Positions 8,482-13,421 of a stretch of 64,000 nucleotides of DNA are shown piece by piece; position 1 is the first letter of the stretch, and every line of letters begins with the position of its first letter. The stretch lies in the NCBI GenBank assembly GCA_003402285.1, contig QFXG01000028.1, forward strand, positions 171,422-235,421, in the 5' to 3' direction. The DNA is from Candidatus Nitrotoga sp. SPKER (lineage in GTDB: Bacteria > Pseudomonadota > Gammaproteobacteria > Burkholderiales > Gallionellaceae). The translations under genes were made by a program, and so were the position numbers. Below the pieces are notes generated by a model. That model ran no database searches. It saw nothing but the letters and a program-made list of their open reading frames with translations, and was not told where the DNA came from.

Positions 8482-9408
8482 ATGAAAAATGATCCAAAAA
8501 TTGAAGAGTTGAACCAGTCTGTAGGTATAGAGTGCTGGTCGGCAGAACAAATACAACAGGCACAAATAGCAGCTGCAAAAGAAGCAGGGCTCGAAGAAAT
8601 AACATTTCGCGATAGATCGGACACCCCTGAAATGGTGGTGCTACCGGCGGGAAGTTATGGCATGGGTGAATTATTCGAAAAGCACAAAGTTACTTTTGCT
8701 CGTCCCTTTGCAGTAGGAAAATACCTGGTTACGGTGGAAGAGTGGAAGCGTTTCGTCGAAAGATTACGGCCTGAAGATGAGGTATTACCCGGTGTGGGCG
8801 CAGGGTATTTAGCCGGTACAGGAACAGTTCGCGGACATAACAAGACTTTACTCAAATCCCCTACGAAGGCAACTGAATTGCATCACGAAGTTTTGAGTTA
8901 CGTTAAAGAAACTAACAGCGATTTTCCGGTCACCAATATCAATTGGTTTGACGCACAGGATTATGTGCGTTGGCTATCAACTCAAACAGGCCACACATAC
9001 CGCTTACTGACCGAAGCAGAATGGGAATACGCCTGCCGTGCAGGGACGGTAACCGAATATTACTGGGGTGATGAAATAGGTCATAACAATTGTAATTGCC
9101 AGGACAGTGAGAGCGAATGGAGCTGTCGAAGTGCCTCACCCGTGGGCAGTTTTAAACCGAATGCTTTTGGCCTATATGACATGCTGGGAAATGCATGGGA
9201 ATGGGTGGAAGACCCGTGGCATGAAAATTACGAAGGGGCGCCAGACGACGGAACGGCTTGGATGTCTGAAGGCAACCGACAATGGCGTGTGTTACGTGGA
9301 GGCTGTTGGGATAGCGACCCGCGGGACGCGCGCGCTCCCCTTCGTTTGTGGATTGAACCTTCAATCCGGAACTACGGTATTGGTTTCCGTATTGCCAGGA
9401 CGCTGTAA
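8482..9408 (+). CDS. FGE-sulfatase (SUMF1) fold protein, copy 1, no catalytic cysteines
   Basis: This 308-residue cytoplasmic protein (no signal peptide) is mostly an FGE/SUMF1 domain of C-type-lectin fold. Landmarks are [15 protein letters not shown] near residue 50, the [14 protein letters not shown] segment, [50 protein letters not shown] and the C-terminal RVLRGGCW...GFRIARTL. Copies 2-4 carry a PEGA-like N-terminal domain that is missing here. The cysteine pair of true formylglycine-generating enzymes near the RGGS motif is absent, so sulfatase activation is unlikely. The start at 8482 was chosen for its GGAG site. It is the first of four tandem paralogues; the last 40 residues resemble DGR variable regions. 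Function unknown. Confidence 0.85.
   Translation: [308 protein letters not shown]
9286..9405 (+). other. Variable-region-like (VR-like) C-terminal segment of FGE copy 1
   Basis: This segment encodes the RVLRGG-CW scaffold, then D-S-D, P-R-D-A-R, L before R, I before R-N-Y-G, and GFRIART. Nine positions that vary among the four paralogues use codons ending in C or T (gat, agc, gac, gac, ctt, atc, aac, tac, ggt). All are reachable from AAC or AAT by changing only the adenines, as in diversity-generating retroelement targets. No template repeat is found in the window. Confidence 0.45.
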
Positions 9409-9638
9409 TAAAAGCGGCCTGCTCATTCAACCTTAAATCTGCACTTGTCCTCCACTTTTTGACATTAAATTGCACCAAGTAATAACGTAAAACATGGAAC
9501 CGTCCGAAAAAATTTAATCTGGGCGGAAATACCTACTCTGGTTTATCGCGCCCAGTACATTATCTTGTCTTAAGCTTGTCTTAGAAGGTGATCTGGTAAT
9601 CGCTATTAAAATAAGAAATCTGAATGGGAGATAATTAG

Positions 9639-12155: not shown

Positions 12156-12287
12156 TAAAATTTGCAAGCACCTGCATACCAAGCTTTGGTAAATTTTTCT
12201 CGCGTCTTGGATTTAAATGAGTTCTAATTTTTAGAGCGACCTTCAACCTTTACTATTTTCTCTTCAATTTTTCACGGAATAGCATTC

Positions 12288-13421
12288 ATGAGTAATGAAC
12301 AACACGAAGACCCTCTCAAAAACTCAGATTCCGCTGGCGATTCTCCTGTTAAAACTACCGCAGCTTTGCTACTTGAATCTGATATGGATTGCTATCTCAC
12401 TATAAATGGCGACGATCAGGACCAACTAGATAAAAACACACCCCGACGCTTTTTTCTATCTGCGGGTAGCCACCTTATTAATGTCATCACACAAGATGGT
12501 CTAGTGGAAAAAGAATGGGTGCAAGCCTTTAATGATAAAGAGGTTGCCCATCTCATCTATCTGGCGGAGGAACATGCACAGGCCCACGCAAAGTTTAAGG
12601 AACAAAAGGAAGAACTGAAGGAACCGCTAGGCATAGAGTGTTGGTCGGTAGAACAAATTCAACTGGAACAAATAACGGCCGCAAGCGAAGTTGGATTTAC
12701 CAAATTTTTCCGTGATACACCAGATACTCCCGAGATGGTAGTGATACCCGCAGGTAGTTATCGTATGGGCGAAGTATCTAGGAAACATAAAGTTACCATT
12801 ACTCGCCCTTTTGCGGTAGGAAAATACCCGGTCACAGTAGCGGAATGGAAGCGTTTCGTTGTATCCGGCGAAACGACCTACTCTCCTGCAGATAACGGCT
12901 GGGCAGGAGACAATCTGCCCGTGACCAATGTCAATTTTATTCATGTGCAAGCCTATGTGCGCTGGCTATCGACAAAGACGGGCAAGACCTACCGCTTATT
13001 GACAGAGGCTGAATGGGAATACGCGTGCCGTGGCGGATCGGTGACGGAATATTACTGGGGTGATGAGCTTGGCAAAAACAACTGCAACTGCCAAGACAGC
13101 AAAAGCGAATGGAGTTGTAAGCGTGCCTCACCAGTCGGTAGTTTTGCGCCTAACGCATTTGGATTGCACGACATGCTGGGAAATGTATGGGAATGGGTAG
13201 AAGATACATGGCATGACACCTACCATGGGGCTCCGGCAGATGGCAAGGCTTGGTCGTCCGGCGGTGCAATAAGCACCCTCAGCAATCAGGAATGGCGCGT
13301 ACTACGCGGCGGTTCATGGATCATTGATCCAAGGGACGCGCGCTCTGCTGTTCGCTTCATGAGTGATCAGTCGAGCCGTAACTCTTACACAGGCTTCCGT
13401 GTTGCCAGAACATTGCCATGA
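12288..13421 (+). CDS. FGE-sulfatase (SUMF1) fold protein with PEGA-like N-terminus, copy 4
   Basis: This 377-residue protein starts at the ATG at 12288 after a CACGGA site. Residues about 24-95 form the PEGA-like domain ([52 protein letters not shown]). The linker [20 protein letters not shown] leads into the FGE-fold domain ([57 protein letters not shown]...GFRVARTLP). It lacks the FGE cysteine pair. Where copies 1-3 have WFDAQ the sequence reads FIHVQ. No signal peptide or membrane segment is seen, so a cytoplasmic location is predicted. Function unknown; ligand binding through the C-type-lectin face is the likeliest role. Confidence 0.85.
   Translation: [377 protein letters not shown]
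13296..13418 (+). other. VR-like C-terminal segment of FGE copy 4
   Basis: The scaffold [8 protein letters not shown], P-R-x-A-R-S-A-x-R and GFRVART surrounds the variable residues I, I, D, D, V, S, N, S, Y. Their codons (atc, att, gat, gac, gtt, agc, aac, tct, tac) all end in C or T. This copy is the closest to textbook DGR targets of the TvpA/FGE class. Confidence 0.48.

Follow-up and report, generated by a model that had tools for sequence, protein, structure and literature searches.

In the window, by which we mean the whole 64,000-nucleotide stretch of Candidatus Nitrotoga sp. SPKER DNA that was analysed, four tandem genes on the + strand encode proteins that resemble formylglycine-generating enzymes (FGE) and PvdO: copy A at 8407-9408 (333 aa, counted from the first listed start), copy B at 9639-10823 (394 aa), copy C at 11029-12117 (362 aa) and copy D at 12288-13421 (377 aa). 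The Pfam family FGE-sulfatase (PF03781) matches all four with E-values from 2.2e-52 to 7.6e-55, and A, B and D are each 62-65% identical to copy C. Copies B to D possess an extra N-terminal part, absent from copy A, which consists mostly of strands in the model of copy C (residues 17-84) and has no Pfam name. The copy C gene is 72-93% identical to its versions in Candidatus Nitrotoga records. A scan of the four proteins for defence families returned 0 families for each, and no publication on this cluster was found in the open-licence literature on diversity-generating retroelements (DGRs) in Nitrotoga or Gallionella, or on formylglycine in Nitrotoga. PvdO is a protein of pyoverdine maturation, a siderophore pathway, and the TonB-dependent receptor gene found directly upstream of the cluster (6006-8129) is possibly relevant in this light.

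Each of the four genes ends in a homologue of a DGR variable region, again on the + strand. In copy A this is the C-terminal segment at 9286-9408; in copy B it covers 10686-10823 and reads RVVRGGSW DCS P K L AR SAS R ARAVTSS R YDD FGFR; in copy C it covers 11992-12117 and reads RVMRGGSW SSF P R Y AR CAH R HGSVPAI R NFN FGLR; and in copy D, at 13296-13421, it ends in TGFR. By sequence, the best solved relative of the proteins is PvdO of Pseudomonas aeruginosa (5hha, E 1.6e-45). The structure of copy C was predicted from 67 sequences with a mean pLDDT of 92.4, and in a Foldseek search with this model PvdO ranks first (E 1.8e-25), with ToxD and FGE enzymes also among the best matches. The initial annotation had recognised the FGE/C-type-lectin scaffold of TvpA in this cluster, an assignment borne out by matches to TvpA in sequence (2y3c, E 4.8e-13) and in fold (Foldseek rank 30, E 2.6e-14). 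A C-type-lectin/FGE fold with a C-terminal variable region is present in A-D, but this does not discriminate for DGR descent because PvdO has both features too. PvdO shares the C-terminal framework of A-D and is not a known DGR target; unlike PvdO, A-D form a tandem array of four copies whose residues differ at nine columns of this framework.

These nine columns (8, 9, 10, 13, 18, 26, 28, 29 and 30, with the R of RVxRGG as 0) were the basis on which the initial annotation had read the cluster as carrying the mark of adenine-specific DGR mutagenesis, as all 36 codons at these positions were said to end in C or T. A recount in A-D gives the same 36/36. The accompanying remark that each of these codons can be reached from AAC or AAT by changes of adenine only is true of all 36, but it is uninformative because every codon ending in C or T satisfies it. 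The nine columns were picked post hoc, after inspection of the sequences, and columns 12, 20, 21, 23, 24, 25 and 31 vary as well, breaking the C/T rule in at least one copy. Among columns with at least three different residues, every copy has C or T as third base in 10 of 15 cases in the C-terminus versus 7 of 55 elsewhere in the genes; the pattern at variable C-terminal columns exceeds chance. When the count is conditioned on the amino acids and on the genes' own codon usage, 36/36 stands against 29.7 expected (P 1.2e-4). With orthologue-majority codons the count becomes 35/36 (P 0.002), because copy C has a minority codon at column 26, where 12 of 15 genomes have ATA.

Known DGRs with FGE-type targets allow the columns to be defined from templates instead. 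In G039 and G040, which belong to the same order, a reverse transcriptase (RT) with the motif GLPxGNLTSQ occurs together with a template and FGE-domain targets, and the mismatches between variable regions and template fall at template adenines in 10/10, 14/14 and 16/16 cases. In the same family, G132 and G052 have FGE-type DGR targets with 17/18 and 18/19 mismatches at template adenines; these are the 2 loci with FGE-type targets among 10 DGR-type RT loci, in 9 genomes, which were taken from the family. The other eight of these Gallionellaceae loci (L167-L174) show adenine-biased repeats, but the stretch examined around them contains no FGE-type C-terminus. The templates of G039, G040 and G132 have Asn AAY codons in common at ten columns (8, 9, 13, 18, 20, 22, 26, 28, 29 and 30), and all nine columns of the initial annotation are AAY in the templates of G039 and G040. 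The G132 template has Lys at column 10, and that of G052 has Glu at column 10 and Lys at column 26; adding G052 would leave nine shared columns because of the Lys at 26. At the ten template-defined columns, 39/40 codons of A-D end in C or T against 31.0 expected (P 4e-5), or 38/40 with majority codons (P 5e-4). By contrast, the columns between 8 and 35 without template Asn in any of the three templates give 34/60 against 32.4 expected, and the bias does not extend to the C-terminus in general. Judged from sequence, the C-terminal loops of A-D are homologous in position, and similar in codon make-up, to regions that DGRs rewrite in related bacteria. When A-D are compared with the four known templates base by base, 36-53 of 111 bases differ, only 17-22 of them at template adenines.

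Two further observations concern FGE domains in this setting. L088 and L089 contain DGRs whose targets include proteins of 1,036 and 1,268 aa ending in an FGE domain, and an ORF that by eye is AAA/MoxR-like ATPase lies beside these targets (L088:10989-12101 and L089:1820-2821); the arrangement resembles conflict systems described in PMC7159879. In addition, a group of Gallionellaceae FGE proteins (L191, L192, L194-L196, L205, L206, L208, L210, L214, L231, L232 and L244) has a C-terminus close to a DGR template, yet one which by eye is alike between genomes.

To judge how special the codon signature is, the ten columns were compared across an FGE set of 201 ORFs from 141 loci, with duplicate loci removed along with any ORF in which no RGG motif was identified or that lacks G at column 32 and R at column 34. 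Informative codons are those of amino acids that can be encoded with either kind of third base. Among them, a third-base pyrimidine occurs in 20 of 21 in A-D (11.5 expected) and in 241 of 280 in 54 orthologues of A-D (152.2 expected). The five active DGR targets give 19/20 (12.6 expected), which means that the signature of A-D is as strong as theirs. Other FGE proteins show the bias as well: 195/268 against 166.3 expected in 68 proteins from the family and order (P 3e-5), 10/14 against 5.8 in four other FGE proteins of G039, 10/12 against 7.5 in five other Nitrotoga FGE proteins, and 46/64 against 38.9 in 15 distant ones. A pool of 92 FGE proteins, formed by removing the five known DGR targets and A-D with their orthologues, the rest not being individually screened for a neighbouring DGR, gives 261/358. 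The NNY codons at the template-adenine columns of A-D are therefore above the amino-acid expectation and also above this pool (Fisher, 20/21 versus 261/358, P 0.014; with majority codons, 19/21, P 0.055), and when random quartets with at least 15 informative codons were drawn from the 92 rows, 209 of 33,040 reached 20/21. The contrast to other FGE proteins is real, though not overwhelming.

Serine codons appeared at first sight to offer a further mark. At the ten template columns of A-D, 8 serines are AGY and 1 is TCN, as opposed to 0 and 5 at other C-terminal columns. The same excess is found in the 68 other FGE proteins (82 AGY versus 12 TCN at template columns, 26 versus 43 at others) and in the distant ones (13 versus 4, and 3 versus 19). 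As it is equally present in DGR-free FGE relatives, the AGY excess was dropped as a mark of DGR descent; it marks instead the Asn-rich columns of the fold in general.

The behaviour of these columns in the genus was followed in 15 genomes, namely this one and the 14 of 18 other genus genomes that have orthologues; close copies of the cluster are absent from G004, G010, G011 and G016 (91, 83, 71 and 97% complete). Copy by copy, the C-termini are nearly identical across genomes. When each of the nine columns in each copy is taken as one cell (copy D from 14 genomes), 26 of 36 cells show a single amino acid throughout the genomes, and 33 of 36 are variable at the third base. Between species, pN/pS at the nine columns is 0.009 in A, 0.009 in B, 0.033 in C and 0.15 in D, compared to 0.143, 0.132, 0.146 and 0.177 in the respective scaffolds and 0.049, 0.08, 0.045 and 0.077 in the remainder of the C-terminus (15 sequences each for A and B, 14 each for C, which is missing in L056, and D, which is missing in L049). 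Orthologue pS at the nine columns is 0.36-0.69, and therefore there has been time enough for change. Copy D is the least frozen, with its nine columns (0.15) exceeding its other C-terminal columns (0.077). Raised non-silent variation at the variable-region columns was not seen in this between-species comparison. The initial annotation had suggested comparing the segments among strains, with differences at the nine positions as the sign of a DGR; between species the outcome goes largely against this, because the nine residues are near-invariant despite free change at silent sites. A comparison of the copies with one another gives the opposite order, with pN of 0.50 at the nine columns versus 0.21 in the scaffold. 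Low divergence between orthologues combined with high divergence between copies is the pattern of putative specificity-determining positions, and we take A-D to be putative binding proteins with four fixed specificities.

As a template also rewrites the framework around the variable positions, writing from one common template should be visible in the framework codons. At invariant residues, silent sites of the framework agree in 0.571 of codon pairs between copies (14 columns), which is no higher than the 0.581 found in the scaffold (121 columns), and there is therefore no trace of a common template after duplication. The idea that one such template served A-D after their duplication was not borne out. 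Either the writing is older than most of the silent divergence between the copies, or separate templates were used, or something else produced the signature. A tree built from 123 FGE scaffolds groups A-D in a single clade (100/99) and places the DGR targets at dispersed positions between other FGE proteins, with many weak forks. This tree, in which scaffolds were trimmed to at most 235 aa and scaffolds below 150 aa, overlapping duplicates of loci and 11 of the 14 further genomes with orthologues were omitted, leaves 41 of 120 inner branches open with the bootstrap not settled, and it gave no polarity for gain versus loss.

A live DGR would be recognised by its reverse transcriptase and its template. 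The initial annotation had reported neither in the window, with which we agree, and had proposed a search of the whole genome, which likewise found neither. The genome (G000) has 2 RVT_1 matches. One (L001:1108-2862, on G000:C31) is a 584-aa group II intron RT-maturase with RVT_N, GIIM and HNH domains; G015 has a match of the same score. The other (L002:317-2349, on G000:C5) is the RT of a type II-A retron with its NDT partner gene, which is nucleoside-deoxyribosyltransferase-like (PADLOC: NDT_II-A 6.2e-80, RT_II-A 2.6e-121). Over 19 genus genomes there are 20 RVT_1 matches in 10 genomes, and none of the 18 with a readable motif region is of DGR type, which we take to be marked by GxxxSQ, a motif also seen in L088 and L089; the remaining two are a fragment without the motif region (L087) and a match outside the motif reading (G001:C22, E 0.016). 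A profile of two DGR RTs, searched against 158 family genomes at E<=1e-10, matches 40, including 5 of the 19 in the genus. Of these 40 genomes, 14 were inspected; 9 were confirmed as DGR-type, and the 5 of the genus were not, their RT motif being GxPQG instead of GxxxSQ. RTs with GIPQGS and RYRDD motifs at L071 and L072 (G004 and G006) are by motif not DGR-type either. Avd (PF05635) was found in 0 of 19 genus genomes, with the same search also returning 0 of 14 in controls.

The search for a template in this genome had a similar outcome. Apart from the cluster itself, a DNA query spanning all four C-termini matched nothing but FGE genes and short stretches; over a variable region the longest of these is 35 bases at 83% (E 0.07). 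A query with copy C alone likewise revealed no template. The 14-base pattern TGGAAYAAYAAYCC with 0-1 mismatch has 9 matches in the genome, and none of the 8 that were read continues as a template. The longer pattern GGNGGNTSNTGGAAYAAYNNNCC with up to 2 mismatches has 7, comprising copies A, C and D, another FGE gene and three sites elsewhere; the one read of these three, on C24, lies opposite a 530-aa ORF, lacks the framework and is not a template. With no DGR-type RT and no template found, an active DGR in the genome was rejected, and the initial suggestion of a DGR at work here does not hold for a live system, given that the 18 readable RTs of the genus are of other types and the nine residues are near-invariant between species.

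Of the explanations to be weighed, a live DGR acting in trans, whose RT and template would lie at another genomic site or on a replicon missing from the assembly, would be in line with the existence of FGE-target DGRs in the same family, with the remote targets described in cyanobacteria (PMC7517822) and with the 32 contigs of the assembly, which leave room for a gap. Against this, there is no DGR-type RT among the readable matches of 19 genus genomes, no template was found in this genome and the residues are conserved between species, which makes such a system very improbable. Equally improbable is that A-D are formylglycine-generating enzymes with their C-terminus as the catalytic site, as might be concluded from the Pfam FGE-sulfatase matches in all four and the FGE structures among the best fold matches. 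The FGE of T. curvata (5nxl) has Cys residues aligned to columns 9 and 14, which are its catalytic pair, and no copy has both: A, B, C and D have S, C, S and I at column 9 and Ala throughout at column 14, so that the pair is absent from each of them.

A far more serious competitor is that A-D are ordinary PvdO/FGE-like paralogues never written by a DGR, whose nine columns line a ligand pocket and diverged by point mutation after duplication before being fixed. The ancestor would have been Asn-rich, with the pyrimidine bias arising from passage through residues with NNY codons only (N, D, Y, H, C and F); we consider this account as a whole slightly less than an even bet. In its favour, the framework is shared by PvdO, the family is rich in FGE proteins (matches at E<=1e-20 in 118 of 158 genomes, versus the 40 with any DGR RT profile match), other FGE proteins show a weaker version of the bias (195/268) and the same serine AGY excess (82 versus 12), and framework codons are not homogenised between copies. 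On the other hand, the pyrimidine bias of A-D survives conditioning on the amino acid, equals that of active DGR targets and exceeds the pool (P 0.014; P 0.055 with majority codons). The balance tips narrowly towards frozen descendants of DGR-written genes, the two readings being close.

Our preferred reading, to which we give about an even chance, is that A-D belong to the FGE/PvdO-like C-type-lectin proteins and that their variable regions, now frozen and copy-specific, go back to regions once written by a DGR. Of the mark of adenine-specific mutagenesis originally claimed, the coincidence of the nine columns with template Asn (AAY) and a signature as in active targets stand; the writing of the residues by a DGR and its later loss are an inference, as is a difference in ligands between the proteins. 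In this scenario an ancestor of the Nitrotoga lineage would have carried FGE-type genes under a DGR, four useful variants would have been retained, the RT and the template would then have been lost, and the residues of each copy would since have been held by purifying selection. The fuller version, in which a DGR built a repertoire of binding proteins, four winners were fixed and the generator was deleted, leaving a frozen and vertically inherited repertoire, is tentative, its odds falling a little below even.

The frozen descendants would find their closest counterparts among known DGR systems. The FGE-type variable proteins TvpA and the targets of G039, G040, G132 and G052 have the same FGE subtype of the C-type-lectin fold as A-D, and a variable C-terminus after RGGSW, AAY template columns and NNY codons, all as in A-D; TaqVP is likewise an FGE-type DGR variable protein (PMC6328139). 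Unlike in these systems, no RT or template was found for A-D and the residues are conserved between species. A second counterpart is all3226 of Nostoc PCC 7120, described in PMC7517822 as a DGR-type paralogue that keeps a remnant of TR-VR homology and lacks a nearby RT. Nostoc PCC 7120 retains two DGRs according to the same source, whereas none was found in the examined genus genomes of A-D, and the variants of A-D are conserved across 15 genomes. For one cyanobacterial paralogue, removal of the machinery once a good variant exists has already been proposed (PMC7517822).

The pyrimidine signature at template columns is measurable against ordinary FGE proteins, but it is not yet a sharp test for other frozen DGR repertoires. 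The cluster itself represents four natural variants on one scaffold, useful for ligand work. Research on DGRs regards them as engines of continuing variation; if the preferred reading is true, A-D would be the remnant end state of one, with selected variants fixed and the machinery gone, an outcome suggested earlier for single paralogues (PMC7517822).
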